Of a DNA stretch of 64,000 nt, positions 54,707 through 62,140 are shown piece by piece. A program made the position numbers and the translations under genes. Under the pieces are notes generated by a model that worked only from the letters and a program-made list of their open reading frames with translations, was not told the DNA's origin and searched no databases. The stretch's first letter is position 1. Each line of letters opens with the position of its first letter. Origin of the DNA: Carboxylicivirga sp. M1479 (GTDB lineage Bacteria; Bacteroidota; Bacteroidia; Bacteroidales; Marinilabiliaceae); assembly GCF_007097485.1 (NCBI RefSeq), contig NZ_VKDE01000002.1, positions 1 to 64,000 of the forward strand, written 5' to 3'.

Positions 54707-55237
54707 ATGAAGCAGCTAAAGTTAATATTAGCTACTATAACCGTGGGTTTGTTCTTTTTGTCGTTCATTAACGATAATCAGACAGCTGAAGTTGGTTTAG
54801 ATGCTGGAAATAAAGCTCCGGTATTTAAAACTGAACTTATCGATGATACGCCTTTTAATTTAGACGATTTAGAGGGAAAAATGGTCCTTTTAAATTTCTG
54901 GGCGTCATACGATTCGCAGTCACGCATGAATAATTACTACTTGAATCAACTTCTTACAGAATATGGGAATGAAGGTTTCCATAATGGCGAAGAGTTTGTA
55001 GTAGTAAGTATTTCACTTGACCGCTTTAAAGCTCCACTTAAGCTTGCCATAGAGCAAGATGAAACCATGAAATTTTTGCATATCTGCGATTTCAAGGGCG
55101 CTAACGGTAGCATTAGCAAGATGTATAACATCAATAATCCTGTCAATATTCTTATTGATGGCGAAGGACGTATAGTTAACAAAGACGTCGAGTATTCAAC
55201 GATTGAAAGATCGCTAGCCTTCCTGGCAGCTATTTAA
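54707..55237 (+). CDS. TlpA-like thioredoxin-fold protein without active-site cysteines
   Basis: 176 residues. N-terminal hydrophobic signal or anchor (about 5-20), then an AhpC/TlpA-type redoxin fold: GNKAPVF, LNFWASYDSQSRMN (about 62-75), VVVSISLD, a late cis-Pro site NNPVNILIDGEG. At the place where thioredoxins have WCGPC the sequence is YDSQS, so both redox cysteines are gone (Asp69 and Ser72). The rest of the fold is kept, which suggests a binding or scaffold role, not decay. A paralogue with an intact WCGPC starts 21 bases downstream. Confidence 0.82.
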   Translation: MKQLKLILATITVGLFFLSFINDNQTAEVGLDAGNKAPVFKTELIDDTPFNLDDLEGKMVLLNFWASYDSQSRMNNYYLNQLLTEYGNEGFHNGEEFVVVSISLDRFKAPLKLAIEQDETMKFLHICDFKGANGSISKMYNINNPVNILIDGEGRIVNKDVEYSTIERSLAFLAAI

Positions 55238-55258
55238 TTACCCATTATTTTTTTTAGT

Positions 55259-55786
55259 ATGAAAGAACTGTTTAAATACCCATTTGGGGTACTTATTATT
55301 TTGTTGCTTTTATCAGCTATGGGTGCCGAGGCACAAAAGAAAGGAACTGATATTGGCGATGTAGCCCCTAATATAAAGTTGCGAAATCCTGATGGCGAAA
55401 TGATGGAATTAGAATCATTGCGCGGGCAATTGGTGCTCATTGATTTTTGGGCCAGCTGGTGTGGCCCTTGTCGACGTGAGAATCCGATAGTTGTAGATGC
55501 CTACAATAGTTTTAAGGATAAGAAATTTAGCAGCGGTAAAGGATTTACTGTTTATAGTGTTTCCTTGGATAAAAAACAAAGTTCGTGGGAGGCAGCCATT
55601 AAAGACGATAAGTTAACTTGGCCTTATCATGTTAGTGATTTAGCCGGATGGAATAGTAGAGCCGCCGCTATGTATGGAGTTAATGGTATTCCGATGAACT
55701 TTTTAATTGATGAAAATGGAATCATCATTGCTAAAAATTTAAGGGGACATGCTTTAAAATCGACCTTACAGACTTTAGTGAAATAA
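55259..55786 (+). CDS. TlpA-like periplasmic thiol-disulfide oxidoreductase
   Basis: 175 residues with signal peptide (ending GAEAQ, about residue 26). Redoxin fold with GDVAPNIKLRNPDGE, intact active site FWASWCGPCRREN (Cys68, Cys71), VYSVSLDKK, and cis-Pro in GIPMNFLIDENG. Probably reduces cysteines of envelope proteins and would be fed by DsbD. Length, domain order and the LSLR-type spacing match the neighbour at 54707, so they form a tandem duplicate pair. Confidence 0.9.
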   Translation: MKELFKYPFGVLIILLLLSAMGAEAQKKGTDIGDVAPNIKLRNPDGEMMELESLRGQLVLIDFWASWCGPCRRENPIVVDAYNSFKDKKFSSGKGFTVYSVSLDKKQSSWEAAIKDDKLTWPYHVSDLAGWNSRAAAMYGVNGIPMNFLIDENGIIIAKNLRGHALKSTLQTLVK

Positions 55787-57757: not shown

Positions 57758-58116
57758 AACAAACGAAGATAAAATTAAAAGGGCATCCGTTGTGGTGCCC
57801 TTTTTTATTGGTATACCTACCAAATAGAATACGAACTTTTTTTATGAGATTTTCAACTAACGCTTAAGCTGTATGTTTACCCGCTTTTTTAAAAACGCAC
57901 CGTTCATAAGTTTTGCACTTGCTTATTGAAAAGTGTTTGATAGTCAGTTAATATGTTTTTCCTTCCATCTATAAAGTTTTATTGACTATACTTTTTGTGT
58001 GAAATCTGCTATTATGCACCATTAAATAGTAACCTTTTTCTTTAAGATAAGTAACTGTGAACAGTAATACACAATTGATGTTGTATTTGTTTATCTGATA
58101 AGAAAAGTACCAATTT
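57758..58116. other. 359-base gap between dnaJ and the lipoprotein gene
   Basis: Besides the dnaJ terminator I see only A/T-rich sequence. TATACTTTTTG near 57988 is one base longer than the -7 consensus and could be a weak promoter; nothing else stands out. Confidence 0.4.
57775..57807 (+). terminator. Terminator after dnaJ
   Basis: GGGCA(T)CC / GGTGCCC with loop GTTGT, preceded by A-run and followed by six T. Confidence 0.88.
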
Positions 58117-59637
58117 ATGCAAAGAAATTATTTATTAGTGATGCTTGCCATACTTTTGGCAGGCTGTGTTGGAGATGCTTTTAATACCGAAAAGTTATCG
58201 GGAGAAGTAGAATGGGAAACCGGATTGGCCGTGCCACTTATTAAGGCTTCGGTAAGCATGGGAGACGTTTTCTCTGAGAATACCGATTACGTAAAGTATT
58301 ATATGGATGAAGATGGTAATGAACGCATCATGCTTTATCAAGATCAGGATTCTGTATCACGTATTGGCCTTAATGACTTATTTGTTGTTAATGGCGAAAC
58401 AACTTCCATTCCAGTGCCTTTTAGTTTATTAAATAACGGTGCCGAACATTCGATTGATGTCAACATCCCTTTTAATGTTCAAAATGGTGTGCTTAGTAGC
58501 ATTCAGGTCGATTACGAGTTGCGTGTCGAAGGATCTGATATGGCTGCACCATTGAGTCTTCAAATAAGTATGCCAAGTGTTAATGCTGATCAGGGTGGGA
58601 AAATAATTGATGTGTTGGTTGATAATAATCAGCCTGTTATTCAATTACACGAAGATGATGTTATTGACTTGGTCGATGGCTCTATACCAGCTGTGTTTAC
58701 TTTTAAAACCAATGATAATAACCTGTGGTTTGATATGTACCAGGTTGGTAATGTTTCTTTGTCAATGGATCAGATCCATTTTGATTCTGCCAAAGGACGC
58801 TTGCAAGAAATTGTTACGCGCTTTGATGAGGGAATTTTGGATTTTGACTTTGATATTTTTGAAGAGTTACCTGAGGGCGTAGAGTTTGTTAAGCCAAATC
58901 TTAAATTGTTAATCACTAATTCAACTCCATTTAGAGGATTAATACGTCCTGAGTTTATAGCGCAAGGGGGTGCCGTTGATGGGATGGCATTGAACGTTAG
59001 TGAAGACATTATTGTGCAGCAGATGGAAGATGGTAAAGTACTGTATGATACCATTTCATTATCAGATCGCTCTAACCTTAATGAGTTCTTTTCAAATGTG
59101 CCAGATCAAATTGCGTATTCAGCCGATTTAGTGCTGAACCCTAATAATGCCGTTACCGAAGAGGTGGAGCTGGACGAGACCAGTAACGTGCATTTTGGTT
59201 ATATGATTGAAGTGCCTGCTGAGTTCTTGGTCAATGCTGAGTTTGATACCGAAACCGTTGATTTAAATGATAATGATTTTATTCGTGACTTTGAGAATGC
59301 ACAAATAGATATTAACGGCATAAGTAATTTTCCTTTACAAGCAGAGGCCTTTATCGATTTTTATGAAGAAAGCTCAGACCAGGTAACAGAAACTATACAT
59401 GCTATTGTATTAAATGCTGCCGAGGTAAATGAAAAAGGTATTGTTGTGAATGAAGTGACACGCACCGAGCGCATTAAACTTACACCTGATCAAATTGAGA
59501 AATTAGCGGTTGCTGATCAATTACGTATTCGATTTAAGCTGCAGTCGGCCAATTATGAAAGCGGACAGCCTGTAGTGTTGCTAACCGATAATTCATTGGC
59601 AGTAGATTTTTCTATTAAAGGACAGATTAAGAATTAA
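58117..59637 (+). CDS. Large lipoprotein of unknown function
   Basis: 506 residues. Lipoprotein signal MQRNYLLVMLAILLAGC (Cys17). The mature chain is acidic and beta-rich with many Asp and Asn; repeated features include long amphipathic strands and several Asp-Asp pairs. No known domain is recognised. It begins WETGLAVPLIKASVSMGDVF, a run I associate only loosely with Bacteroidota lipoproteins that precede DUF5723 barrels. It is 15 bases upstream of such a barrel gene, so the two products probably work together at the outer membrane. Confidence 0.78.
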   Translation: MQRNYLLVMLAILLAGCVGDAFNTEKLSGEVEWETGLAVPLIKASVSMGDVFSENTDYVKYYMDEDGNERIMLYQDQDSVSRIGLNDLFVVNGETTSIPVPFSLLNNGAEHSIDVNIPFNVQNGVLSSIQVDYELRVEGSDMAAPLSLQISMPSVNADQGGKIIDVLVDNNQPVIQLHEDDVIDLVDGSIPAVFTFKTNDNNLWFDMYQVGNVSLSMDQIHFDSAKGRLQEIVTRFDEGILDFDFDIFEELPEGVEFVKPNLKLLITNSTPFRGLIRPEFIAQGGAVDGMALNVSEDIIVQQMEDGKVLYDTISLSDRSNLNEFFSNVPDQIAYSADLVLNPNNAVTEEVELDETSNVHFGYMIEVPAEFLVNAEFDTETVDLNDNDFIRDFENAQIDINGISNFPLQAEAFIDFYEESSDQVTETIHAIVLNAAEVNEKGIVVNEVTRTERIKLTPDQIEKLAVADQLRIRFKLQSANYESGQPVVLLTDNSLAVDFSIKGQIKN

Positions 59638-59652
59638 GCTTGTAGGGAGAGT

Positions 59653-61068
59653 ATGATGATGAAGAATTTTAAAAAACTATATATAAGTGCGCTTTTAATG
59701 TTAGTGAGTGTTGCCACTATGGCACAAGATAACTCACTAATGTTTACCAAGGGTATTCCGCAATCGAATCAGTTAAATGTTGCTTTTCGTCCGGTTAAGA
59801 AATGGTACCTGTCTATGCCCGCCTTGGGAAGTGTGCAAATGAACGGTGCAAACAGTGGCTTTTCGTGGGACGATGTGATTAGACAGGGAACAGGTATGCG
59901 TTCAGATTCCTTGATAGTTGATTTGGATTATGCGGCCAGTCAAATGGAAGAGAACAATTTATTTGCCACAGAGGCCTCATTGCAGGTGCTAGGTTTTGGT
60001 TTCGCAGCCAATAAGTGGTTTTTCAGTTTTGATATTAACCACAAGCTAAAGGCAAAAGTGAATTACCCTTTATCGCTGATGAACCTGCGCTACGGAAACT
60101 GGAATTTTGAAGATGACAAGCCAATCAACCACTCATTTTCGAATATGTATGTTAATGGTATCGACTATCATGAAGTCGCTATTGGAGCCTCACGCATTAT
60201 TAATGACAAGCTTACGCTAGGTATGCGCGTGAAATACATATTGGGTGTAGCTAATGTGCAATCGGAATACATGAACCTGGAAATGCAAACTTTGGATAAT
60301 GGCACCATGCTTATCAATTCAGACATGGCTTTTCGTACTAACATACCTCTGGACATAAGTTACGATGCCGATGGTTTTGTAAGTAGTTTTGATGTGAGTG
60401 ATGAAGTAGAAGATAACTTAACTTCTACAGATAATGTAGGTTGGGGATTTGATTTTGGAGCTACCTATCAGGTAACTGATAAGTTAATGCTTGGTGCTGC
60501 GGTTAACGATCTTGGTTTTATTAAATGGACTGGTGAAACATCACGTTTATATACCAAAGGTTCATTTGAATACAGTGGTGTTGATGTGTCGGACGAATTA
60601 ACTGGCGATGATGGAGACGGTGAGTACCTTGATCAGATAGCAGATGACTTTGAAGATGCCTTTAAGTTCAATAACGATGTGGAGGATTATAAAACAGGTT
60701 TAATGGGCAGCTTTAACGTGTCGGCTGATTACCAGTTAAAACGTTGGTTGAACTTTGGTGTGGTATCGAAAAACTATTGGTTAGACGAGAAGTTAGTGCC
60801 ACAGGTAACTTTGGCAACAGGTGTACAGGCTGGTAGAATATTATCAACCGCCATTACCTATTCATACATGAAAAATGCTCCGGCTAACCTAGGGGCTGGC
60901 TTAGCCCTTAACCTGGGAGCACTACAGTTCTATGCTGTTACCGATAATTTGTCATCCGCCTTAAAGCCTGAAACGGCCAAATATGTGAATGCCCGTTTGG
61001 GTATCAACTTTGTGTTTAATGGCAAGCGTGAGAAAAAGCAGGAATTTATCGAGATTACTGAGGAGTAA
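59653..61068 (+). CDS. DUF5723 outer-membrane barrel protein
   Basis: 471 residues (starts at 59656 and 59659 are also possible). Signal peptide (ending TMAQ), then DUF5723: DNSLMFTKGIPQSNQLNVAF, PALGSVQMNGANSGFSWDDV, many alternating aromatic strands typical of a porin-like barrel such as PorV/FadL, including VGWGFDFGATYQVTDKLMLG and a closing strand NARLGINFVFNGK. Its role is unknown. Shares an operon with the lipoprotein upstream and a terminator with the convergent FAD oxidoreductase gene. Confidence 0.85.
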   Translation: MMMKNFKKLYISALLMLVSVATMAQDNSLMFTKGIPQSNQLNVAFRPVKKWYLSMPALGSVQMNGANSGFSWDDVIRQGTGMRSDSLIVDLDYAASQMEENNLFATEASLQVLGFGFAANKWFFSFDINHKLKAKVNYPLSLMNLRYGNWNFEDDKPINHSFSNMYVNGIDYHEVAIGASRIINDKLTLGMRVKYILGVANVQSEYMNLEMQTLDNGTMLINSDMAFRTNIPLDISYDADGFVSSFDVSDEVEDNLTSTDNVGWGFDFGATYQVTDKLMLGAAVNDLGFIKWTGETSRLYTKGSFEYSGVDVSDELTGDDGDGEYLDQIADDFEDAFKFNNDVEDYKTGLMGSFNVSADYQLKRWLNFGVVSKNYWLDEKLVPQVTLATGVQAGRILSTAITYSYMKNAPANLGAGLALNLGALQFYAVTDNLSSALKPETAKYVNARLGINFVFNGKREKKQEFIEITEE

Positions 61069-61092
61069 GTTACTCAGACCATAATATATAAG

Positions 61093-61128
61093 AAAGGTTA
61101 CTCATTAGGTGAGTAGCCTTTTTTTATT
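61093..61128. terminator. Bidirectional terminator between DUF5723 and FAD oxidoreductase genes
   Basis: AAAGGTTACTCA / TGAGTAGCCTTT with loop TTAGG (one G-T pair), then seven T. The stop codon of the minus-strand gene (61124) lies at its edge. Confidence 0.85.
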
Positions 61129-62140
61129 GCTTCAAAATATTCATTGCCATCTCCTTTGCTAGATAAGGAGCCATTAGGCCACCACGTGAGCCGAGTCCAT
61201 TAAAAAGGCCAATTTGTGGGTGTTTATCCGATTGTTGTGTAACTGGTCTCCTGTCAGCAAATGTGGGGCGTATGCCAGTAATTTGTTTTTGCACATTAAG
61301 GGGCAGGTCGGCTATTCGCTGCCATTTATCCAATAGTTCCTCTTGTTTATTGGCCGATGGAGCCAGATCGTTCCAATGGTGAGCATAAGTAGCGCCTATC
61401 TTGAATTGCTGAGGCCCAACCGGCATAACAAACACTCCTTTACTAATAATGCTCTTTAGTTCAAGTCCTGCTATCTTCACATCCAGTAGCTCGCCCTTGG
61501 TATTGTTCCATTTATGATGAGAGAAAAAACGGCTTTGAGCATCAGAACTGCCTCTGCAAAAGATTACTCTTTGGGCCTTGATGTTTCTCCATTTAACACC
61601 CTCGCTGTGTAGTTCCAGGTCATCATCGTTAAAGTCTGCCTCAATAAGGTTGTCGTTTTTAATAAGGAACTGACGATAAGCATCCAGCATGTGAGCCATG
61701 TCTAGGCGTGCACAAGGATGTATAGTGCCATAGCCAAATGGCTGATGAAAACCTTGGGGCAAGTCATGTTGTGCTTTAACTGAGAGGTAATCGCCCAGCT
61801 GTTCTTTCTCCTGGCGATGCTGCCAAAATTGCTCATCATCTTTACCATATAATTTATAAACCGGCATGGGGTAGTAAAAACGTGTGTTTAAATGTTGCTC
61901 CAACTCCTGATAGAGTGCATGGGCATAGGGCTGAAAAATGTTGGCCTGCCAGGTTTTAGTTACCCGCTTAACAACAATGGGGTTAATTAAACCGGCTGCC
62001 GCACGGGAGGCACTTCCGTTTTTGGGTACATCAATCAACTTGTGCGCAATATTGTTTTTCAACAGGTGATACGATAGCATGGTGCCGGCTAAACCCTGAC
62101 CAATAATTAACACCTCTGTTTTGTCGTCTTTTTGCATCAT
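61124..62140 (-). CDS. FAD-dependent oxidoreductase (D-amino-acid oxidase type)
   Basis: 338 residues, DAO/GlpO fold. FAD dinucleotide site VLIIGQGLAGTMLSYHLL (about 10-27), SRAAAGLINPIVVKR, and the C-terminal FAD contact GLFNGLGSRGGLMAPYLA. Relatives include glycine oxidase and the oxidase half of MnmC, but no tRNA-methyltransferase domain is fused, so the substrate is open. Cytosolic, no signal. Single gene, divergent from the GH20 gene. Confidence 0.86.
   Translation of the reverse strand: MMQKDDKTEVLIIGQGLAGTMLSYHLLKNNIAHKLIDVPKNGSASRAAAGLINPIVVKRVTKTWQANIFQPYAHALYQELEQHLNTRFYYPMPVYKLYGKDDEQFWQHRQEKEQLGDYLSVKAQHDLPQGFHQPFGYGTIHPCARLDMAHMLDAYRQFLIKNDNLIEADFNDDDLELHSEGVKWRNIKAQRVIFCRGSSDAQSRFFSHHKWNNTKGELLDVKIAGLELKSIISKGVFVMPVGPQQFKIGATYAHHWNDLAPSANKQEELLDKWQRIADLPLNVQKQITGIRPTFADRRPVTQQSDKHPQIGLFNGLGSRGGLMAPYLAKEMAMNILKQ

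Follow-up and report, generated by a model that had tools for sequence, protein, structure and literature searches.

In the accessible text of two papers on the BAM complex of Bacteroidota (PMC12578637; PMC12611786), BamG is a FadL-type 14-stranded barrel and holds BamH, a lipoprotein of the cell surface. BamG2 and BamH2 are placed in a putative operon (PMC12578637), and universal conservation of BamG and BamH throughout the phylum is stated in PMC12611786. PorP-like barrels hold type B proteins of the T9SS, as described in the accessible part of PMC9143113.

Here we describe a lipoprotein and a DUF5723 barrel encoded side by side in Carboxylicivirga sp. M1479, within a 64,000-nucleotide stretch of DNA that was analysed as a whole (the window). 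A literature search for DUF5723 and PF18990 found no paper naming the barrel family.

Two genes between terminator-like hairpins

A first-pass annotation had singled out two open reading frames 15 bases apart as an acidic lipoprotein and a barrel, both with export signals. The spacing is borne out by the coordinates (59637/59653), and the locus has the following features:

57777..57804, + strand: terminator-like hairpin after dnaJ and ahead of the pair (terminator scan)
58117..59637, + strand: lipoprotein gene, 506 aa, ATG start; remote DUF4621-like beta-sandwich, matched to 4h3w by fold and profile
58117..58167, + strand: lipoprotein signal peptide with lipobox LAGC and lipidated Cys17 (by eye; predicted cleavage)
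59248..59634, + strand: lipoprotein C-terminal domain (alignment A6, profile match, model pLDDT)
59638..59652, + strand: gap of 15 bases between the two genes (ORF coordinates)
59653..61068, + strand: DUF5723 (PF18990) outer-membrane barrel, 471 aa, ATG start (Pfam match; predicted FadL-like fold)
59776..59784, + strand: N-V-A close to the N-terminus of the barrel, at the putative NPA motif site of FadL-type proteins (sequence)
61090..61124, no strand assigned: terminator-like hairpin between the barrel gene and a convergent FAD oxidoreductase gene (scan and folding)

Both proteins carry export signals when read by eye: the lipoprotein begins with MQRNYLLVMLAILLAGC, which includes the lipobox LAGC, and the barrel has a Sec-type signal ending in ...VATMAQ. 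The description as acidic was apt, the mature lipoprotein having a pI of 4.05 with 87 D+E against 28 K+R; the barrel is likewise acidic (pI 4.52). Both open reading frames are real genes, since homologues occur in many lineages.

The hairpin at 61090–61124 carries a T-run, and the stretch 61085–61135 folds with −18.7 kcal/mol (z −5.3; equalled by 0 of 200 shuffles). The terminator scan is weak by itself, since it gave three sites against 2.2 in shuffles, the third of them within the lipoprotein gene. With hairpins on either side of the pair, the lipoprotein and barrel genes therefore look like a single transcription unit.

A lipoprotein remotely related to DUF4621

The window lipoprotein had no match above the Pfam cut-off and none in NCBIfam, and PF15414 (DUF4621) did not match it at E 1. 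A DUF7677 match at E 0.15 and, for the lipoprotein of locus L048, a RE_AccI match of 21.7 of 22 bits were taken as noise. The lipoprotein model matches 4h3w, the DUF4621 structure of Parabacteroides distasonis BDI_1231, with Z 16.8 over 279 residues (next row 9.1), and the lipoprotein profile A3 found 4h3w alone in the PDB at E 10 (E 3.2e-4). Fold and profile place the lipoprotein as distantly related to DUF4621, from which it differs in its greater length and in an additional middle region that is modelled with low confidence. A 4h3w-like (DUF4621) gene (E 5.2e-99) lies 30 bases ahead of a DUF5723 gene in genome G388, and the orphan crystal structure gains a genomic partner. In their accessible parts, the papers that came up were a plant paper for DUF4621 and, for 4h3w/BDI_1231, a chemistry review and a paper on crystallography methods in which 4h3w is mentioned.

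The C-terminal domain can be aligned (A6) in members whose length runs from 183 to 911 aa, with 9–33% identity to the window protein. Its profile matches the window lipoprotein, itself a row of A6, at E 2.2e-33, and pLDDT is 70–91 per ten-residue block in the model.

Overall length of the lipoprotein ranges from 181 to 1063 aa (CV 0.41), whereas that of the barrel is near-constant (CV 0.04), and in 9 of 10 close pairs the lipoprotein shows less conservation than its barrel. Such variability would suit a barrel that is a mere membrane foot for an adhesin-like or coat lipoprotein, and the PorP-like barrels described in the accessible part of PMC9143113 offer a precedent. The lipoprotein is already membrane-anchored by itself, however, and scanning the lipoproteins brought up no adhesin or repeat domain; we consider an anchoring role of this kind unlikely.

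By the rule for surface lipoproteins found in the accessible text of PMC12578637, at least two of the six residues following the lipidated Cys are acidic. The window lipoprotein has one acid there (VGDAFN). Two or more were found in 29 of the 62 family members (of 79) with a script-found lipobox, some of these lipobox calls looking misplaced, and the family mean is 1.47 acids against 0.84 expected from the protein body.

The barrel has a predicted FadL fold

The DUF5723 identity stood up well in Pfam, with PF18990 matching at E 4.7e-84 and scoring 283.7 bits where 26.8 is the cut-off (profile positions 2–376 of 376). The barrel part of the AF2 model, which was built on 8 barrel rows and is a prediction rather than a solved structure, shows the FadL fold, with Z 23.0 to 6z34 (308 residues aligned, rmsd 4.9) and 3pgr. 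Its nearest folds are the FadL, CymD, TbuX and TodX channels (Z 22–23). The model also matches 8gl6_F (Z 21.3) and 6h3i_F (Z 21.2), which we take to be PorV, and 9n2d_B (Z 18.7), 9hjm_F (Z 18.1) and 9hiv_F (Z 17.2), presumably BamG judging from the entries, where molecule names were not printed. The DUF5723 barrel is thus predicted to have a FadL fold common to PorV and BamG, and the first-pass comparison with PorV is apt at this level.

In sequence, FadL/Toluene_X (PF03349) matched the barrel below its cut-off (16.3 against 29.7 bits, E 0.0035) and TodX matched weakly (E 0.089). The putative counterpart of the FadL NPA motif, taken to be the earliest N[PVAGS][AGSV] within residues 31–130, reads NPA in 54, NPG in 12 and NVA in 2 of 76 DUF5723 barrels (L040–L115), a set outside which the window barrel lies. 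PDB titles among the barrel fold matches name FadL NPA mutants.

These likenesses in predicted fold, in sequence and at the putative motif site would fit a FadL-like channel for hydrophobic molecules with the lipoprotein as an outer receptor or lid that hands ligand to the barrel, and the beta-sandwich domains of the lipoprotein show a low-Z resemblance to many jelly rolls. The fold is, however, common to PorV and BamG, and the BAM papers in their accessible text give no transporter role for BamG. The window barrel itself has NVA where the motif has NPA, and the size range of the lipoprotein is unusual for a receptor. Neighbour clustering gave no lipid-metabolism gene kept across families. We hold the channel to be a tentative reading with less than even chances.

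Pairing across the Bacteroidota

By profile, a homologous lipoprotein lies immediately upstream in 51 of 72 DUF5723 loci drawn among the matches listed. These loci represent every second phylum-survey row among the matches listed, which cover all but the weakest matches, excluding rows of the window's genome (G000); 73 rows were chosen and the second listed G089 match was left out. The count was made among 2600 ORFs of 76 loci, with a recruiting profile iterated on the same loci as counted, and BLAST clustering added a further upstream lipoprotein at L047. The first-pass annotation had counted it against its own proposal if DUF5723 genes usually lacked this lipoprotein and no contact were predicted; on the first point the lipoprotein is instead usually present, which supports the proposal of an undescribed lipoprotein–barrel envelope system.

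The gaps are tiny or overlapping, with 40 bases or fewer in 48 of the 51 measured (including two in G000 and leaving out L086 and L091). In separately fetched named loci the lipoprotein is upstream in 10 of 12 and downstream in one (L119); L128 and L129 were dropped, their 5' side being missing, and L123 is probably the same record as L055. Clustering of neighbours (without L143 and L144) showed that no DUF5723 neighbour other than the lipoprotein persists over many families; the clusters that follow it cover 16 loci at varying positions, or 12 loci that belong largely to a single family. These other neighbours are lineage-specific, and no conserved enzyme or transporter among them hints at a substrate. 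Three lipoprotein–barrel pairs occur in the window's genome, of which C43 and C63 are mutually nearest for both genes; here lipoprotein and barrel were co-duplicated. None of 69 stretches in a viral contig scan encodes a relative.

At the level of whole genomes, PF18990 is present in 178 of 296 phylum genomes and in 91 of the 92 that are lipoprotein-positive; in the remaining one (G018) a barrel lies directly behind the lipoprotein. The figure of 92 in 296 is a lower bound because A3 misses short Flavobacteriaceae lipoproteins: it scores nothing in G021, G025 and G029, though L048, L050 and L054 have the lipoprotein. The profile used for recruiting at the loci reaches the shortest members only weakly (L044, E 6.9e-4). 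Within the class sample (Bacteroidia) DUF5723 is nearly universal, with PF18990 in 236 of 247 genomes, and is carried by 193 of the 195 lipoprotein-bearing genomes. Fisher tests, in which relatedness of genomes is ignored, gave p 1.2e-24 for the phylum and 1.7e-5 for the class. The two samples overlap (G000, G021, G025 and others), and some A3 and A6 rows were taken from genomes or loci later searched.

Exceptions to the pairing

The barrel can occur alone, since 20 of the 72 DUF5723 genes, again among the matches listed, are without a linked lipoprotein. Twelve of these belong to one paralogue clade and five to a clade in whose genomes the lipoprotein is encoded at another place. A quick barrel tree, in which seven long terminal branches were flagged, has 6 changes of pairing status against a shuffled mean of 19.8. 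The lipoprotein, too, can stand apart: it is unlinked from DUF5723 in f16/f29 genomes, lies ∼2.2 kb from a PorV-family gene instead at L130, L131 and L133, and occurs as a second copy without adjoining barrel in G037 (L141).

The unlinked genes could be taken to mean that lipoprotein and barrel are mere neighbours. This is highly improbable, as the adjacency recurs across many families while other neighbours change, the lipoproteins themselves are homologous across families, and they depend near-completely on DUF5723. Chance neighbourhood was rejected on the adjacency and this dependence.

Among the 20 unlinked barrels, five carry OmpA (L058, L059, L061, L062 and L114), one carries SPOR just below the cut-off (L111) and 14 have neither; the unlinked barrel at L117 carries SPOR. 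Such fused relatives may on their own link the outer membrane to other layers, and an inward-facing lipoprotein, for which the single acid after the window Cys would speak, could let the pair do the same. The 14 barrels with neither domain argue against such a tether, as does the finding of no peptidoglycan-binding domain among the lipoproteins scanned. Locus L119 has both the OmpA domain and the lipoprotein, so that the two are not simple substitutes. We judge the periplasmic tether to be quite unlikely.

A proposed two-protein complex

We read barrel and lipoprotein as one module, a FadL-fold DUF5723 barrel with its cognate lipoprotein in a BamGH-like two-protein outer-membrane complex, and put the probability of this reading at roughly 0.6. 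The barrel would be the integral anchor within a stable outer-membrane complex, to which the lipoprotein, tethered via its N-terminal lipid, would dock by the C-terminal beta domain, its middle domains, of varying length, pointing away. Physical association of the two proteins is probable. A location of the lipoprotein on the outer surface is somewhat favoured, and docking through the C-terminal domain has about even odds. The fused-chain model reached a pTM of 0.47, a score that comes without inter-chain confidence or PAE; its alignment (A5) kept five barrel-only rows and dropped seven, A4 having put lipoprotein rows into the barrel.

As to role, we lean with weak commitment to scaffolding or assembly at the outer membrane, which we place slightly ahead of passage of lipids or hydrophobes across it, itself tentative. 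More speculatively, and rather unlikely as a whole, DUF5723 and the lipoprotein might form a widespread machine parallel to BamGH, with a variable-length arm, that builds, exports or moves lipids or surface proteins, its paralogues tuned to different cargos inside a single cell. Both families occur jointly in 193 of 247 Bacteroidia genomes, yet no paper on the barrel family was found, and directly testable pairs are available in Flavobacterium.

Comparison with known systems

SusC–SusD is likewise an outer-membrane barrel and a lipoprotein encoded together in Bacteroidota, but SusC is a 22-stranded TonB-dependent barrel while the window barrel is FadL-sized; SusCD identity was rejected, with no SusC or SusD match in Pfam or NCBIfam. 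PorV of the T9SS shares the predicted fold of the barrel (Z 21.3 and 21.2) but not its family: PF19572 did not match the window barrel at E 1, although this model finds other proteins, and PorV family identity was also set aside. The families thus differ from SusCD and PorV partners, as had been proposed at first pass. PorV is not known to have a comparable lipoprotein partner.

FadL/Toluene_X (PF03349) resembles the barrel in predicted fold (Z up to 23), weakly in sequence and perhaps at the NPA motif site. It differs in that the barrel falls below its Pfam cut-off and has its own lipoprotein partner, which belongs to a different family. True Toluene_X genes occur in this genome as well, on C40 and C35, the former a FadL adjoining a GDSL-type lipoprotein and the latter matching TbuX and CymD; in a search for the genome's BamG neither was assigned as such.

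The DUF5723 (A2) and lipoprotein (A3) profiles each found no BAM chain in the PDB, BamG and BamH included, at E 10, a search whose sensitivity is low, because the same-genome Toluene_X FadL finds only 9hjm_F (E 0.0081). The lipoprotein fold matches listed include no BamH chain, which is uninformative either way. On these tests the pair was not filed as BamG/BamH, since PF18990, though nearly universal within the class sample, is not so in the phylum sample, and the profile searches, of low sensitivity, gave no BAM chain.

The pair might still be a BAM-associated or BAM-like unit, an extra or client-specific BamGH-type module that assembles outer-membrane proteins or surface lipoproteins. The hold of BamG on BamH and the putative BamG2–BamH2 operon (PMC12578637 and PMC12611786, accessible text) are in keeping with this, as is the match of the barrel model to BamG chains (Z 17–19). 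Yet the accessible text of PMC12611786 makes BamG and BamH universal, against 178 of 296 phylum genomes for DUF5723, the string 'DUF' is absent from the main text of both papers, and the profile searches, for all their low sensitivity, matched neither protein; we regard such a unit as improbable.

BamG–BamH is the nearest known arrangement to the window pair, each being a FadL-type barrel, predicted in the case of DUF5723, with a lipoprotein. Taken with BamGH, the DUF5723 pair suggests that the combination of a FadL-type barrel and a lipoprotein recurs as a design in the Bacteroidota envelope.

A lipoprotein gene directly upstream of a DUF5723 barrel gene

The window encodes a lipoprotein followed by an outer-membrane barrel of the DUF5723 family (PF18990). 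The genes concerned are:

58117-59637, + strand, lipoprotein gene, ORF of 506 aa
59653-61068, + strand, DUF5723 barrel gene, ORF of 471 aa (PF18990 E 4.7e-84)
61124-62140, convergent with the pair, FAD-dependent oxidoreductase (DAO), downstream neighbour

The lipoprotein and barrel ORFs share strand and reading frame and are separated by 15 bases. As read from the sequence, the lipoprotein starts with a lipoprotein signal (LAGC, Cys17) and the barrel with a Sec signal. No family was found for the lipoprotein in Pfam or NCBIfam. A hairpin with a T-run is located 5' of the lipoprotein gene and a second one 3' of the barrel gene, the latter with a predicted folding energy of -18.7 kcal/mol (z -5.3). 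The genes upstream of the pair are grpE and dnaJ. No mention of DUF5723 or PF18990 was found in the literature searched, which left most subscription papers and all preprints outside, so that absence is unproven.

The DAO of the window groups by BLAST with opposite-strand genes from a different Bacteroidota family, present in 11 loci (including L082, L093, L094 and L097) as the first, second or fourth gene downstream of the pair; the L097 member was confirmed as a DAO. The window also contains two consecutive thioredoxin-fold genes at 54707-55786 (54707-55237 and 55259-55786). The first has WASYDSQSR at the place of WASWCGPCR in the second, and the catalytic cysteine pair is therefore absent from its product.

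Searching the whole genome (G000) with PF18990 gave five matches, four of them above the cut-off. The window barrel shares 55% identity with the barrel on contig C63; both have a lipoprotein upstream, and these two lipoproteins are 39% identical. The C1 barrel (27% identity to the window copy) has directly upstream a short lipoprotein that is homologous according to the lipoprotein profile (3.5e-25), and C39 carries a DUF5723 barrel without a lipoprotein. The C40 match, below the cut-off, is a Toluene_X/FadL gene. Here (L043:4747-7215), 3 bases separate the FadL gene from the next gene, which encodes a lipoprotein-like GDSL lipase/acylhydrolase, a further FadL-lipoprotein pair in G000.

Conservation of the pair in Bacteroidota

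PF18990 was present in 178 of the 296 genomes (completeness ≥90%) of the phylum sample. Every second match among the matches listed outside G000 was chosen, and 72 of the 73 chosen loci were taken. Profiles grown from both window proteins were used to search 2600 ORFs in 76 loci. The lipoprotein profile matched 53 ORFs, two of them from G000, and each of the 53 immediately precedes the DUF5723 gene (with a 61-base overlap in L073, from the start as called). Outside G000, the profile places the lipoprotein upstream of DUF5723 in 51/72 loci. It matched the shortest lipoproteins only weakly (L044, E 6.9e-4) and did not reach the 191-aa upstream lipoprotein of L047, which clusters by BLAST with ten other short lipoproteins.

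The gap between the genes was ≤40 bases in 48 of the 51 pairs measured (two from G000 included, L086 and L091 left out). In these same pairs the lipoproteins vary between 181 and 1063 aa in length (median 694) and the barrels between 428 and 521 aa. A separate scan for named loci, including Carboxylicivirga, Saccharicrinis, Prolixibacteraceae, Flavicella and Culturomica, gave 14 loci, two without their 5' side; the lipoprotein was upstream in 10 of the 12 usable loci, downstream in L119 and lacking in L117.

According to BLAST clustering of the neighbours, the lipoprotein is the only one conserved across many families, with 59 loci in one cluster and 11 short lipoproteins in another. The next-largest clusters reach 16 loci, in scattered positions, or 12 loci, most of them from one family. 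Clade-specific neighbours include LptF/LptG permeases (a 5-locus cluster, confirmed for L068) and a DUF3467 gene, and no neighbour naming a substrate was found among the conserved or clade-specific genes. Two LptF/LptG-type permease genes run convergently towards the pair in L068, L071, L073, L077 and L087.

A3, a profile made from 12 lipoproteins, identified the lipoprotein in at least 92 of the 296 phylum genomes, a lower bound because A3 misses the short Flavobacteriaceae type. PF18990 was also present in 91 of these 92. In the last, G018, a barrel is encoded right behind the lipoprotein (L139; E 1.1e-43 with our own barrel profile), for which no PF18990 match was found at E 1. In the class sample (247 genomes, some common to the phylum sample), where presence per genome and not adjacency was counted, PF18990 was found in 236 and the C-terminal lipoprotein domain (profile A6) in 195 genomes. 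Both occurred in 193 of these 195, the exceptions being G455 (56% complete) and G485. Fisher tests of co-occurrence, which ignore kinship, gave p = 1.2e-24 for the phylum and 1.7e-5 for the class.

Unlinked copies and fused barrels

A quickly built tree of 88 barrels shows 6 changes of the paired/unpaired label, compared with a mean of 19.8 after shuffling (0/500 shuffles as low). One clade of 13 unlinked barrels (SH-aLRT 100) comprises 12 of the 72 sampled loci and C39 of G000, and OmpA and TSP3 domains are present in four of these barrels (L058, L059, L061, L062). Of the 72 sampled loci, 20 are unlinked in total; OmpA is found in five of them (the four above and L114) and a SPOR match just below the cut-off in one. 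Among the named loci, the L117 barrel has a SPOR domain and the L119 barrel an OmpA domain.

A second unlinked clade (L069, L075, L103, L111, L114) belongs to the genome families f16 and f29, and all five genomes keep the lipoprotein elsewhere (L130, L131, L132, L136, L135). The remaining three unlinked loci (L065, L113, L115) are single and on long branches. A PorV-family gene (PF19572) lies ∼2.2 kb from the unlinked lipoprotein in L130, L131 and L133, the last from a further f29 genome, and could represent a change of barrel partner. In L132, L135 and L136 the unlinked lipoprotein directly precedes phosphoglycerate kinase (PF00162 confirmed); by eye, the same arrangement is seen in L134 and L137 (G237, G276), where no barrel adjoins the lipoprotein within the stretch read. 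In G037, one additional lipoprotein (L141) has no accompanying barrel.

Predicted structures

The lipoprotein model, built from 12 rows (pLDDT 68.9, pTM 0.60), is mainly β, with a confident C-terminus and poor regions at residues 1–19, 74–96 and 135–173. Among solved structures it is closest to 4h3w, a protein secreted by Parabacteroides distasonis, with Z 16.8 across 279 residues (next row 9.1); A3 also reaches 4h3w by sequence (E 3.2e-4). In G388, a genome of the same order, the gene of a DUF4621 (PF15414) member matching 4h3w (E 5.2e-99) is separated by 30 bases from a downstream DUF5723 gene (PF18990 1e-117). As G388 alone among the 247 class genomes has a match to 4h3w or PF15414, this adjacency rests on one locus. 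In the literature searched, DUF4621 comes up in plant work and 4h3w or BDI_1231 in other papers.

In a fused-chain model of lipoprotein and barrel (17 rows, pLDDT 69.4, pTM 0.47, no inter-chain confidence figure), the predicted barrel is FadL-like, with Z 23.0 to CymD and FadL. The modeled fold also resembles T9SS chains that we take to be PorV (Z 21.3 and 21.2) and BAM chains that are presumably BamG (Z 18.7, 18.1, and 17.2). With a pTM of 0.47, the model is no basis for claiming lipoprotein-barrel contact.

Comparison with BamG-BamH

Most likely, the barrel would serve as an anchor onto which the lipoprotein docks. The lipoprotein length classes have the N-terminal lipid tail and a low-identity C-terminal domain in common and a variable middle (A3, A6), from which we infer that the ends may bind while the middle reaches. 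Two or more of the six residues after the Cys are acidic in 29/62 lipoprotein members, and one in the window lipoprotein; on such sequence features, surface exposure is unproven.

The best known analogue is BamG-BamH of the BAM machinery. BamG is reported to belong to the FadL family of barrels and to anchor the lipoprotein BamH through its extracellular part (PMC12578637, PMC12611786), and BamG2-BamH2 is a putative operon (PMC12578637). We did not file the DUF5723 pair as BamGH because the phylum sample shows a patchy distribution of DUF5723 (close to universal in the class sample) and because a search of low sensitivity found no sequence match between the two pairs. The TamL paper mentions another FadL homolog with a neighboring lipoprotein (Fjoh_4941/4940), and pairs of a FadL barrel and a lipoprotein may be commoner than has been noticed.
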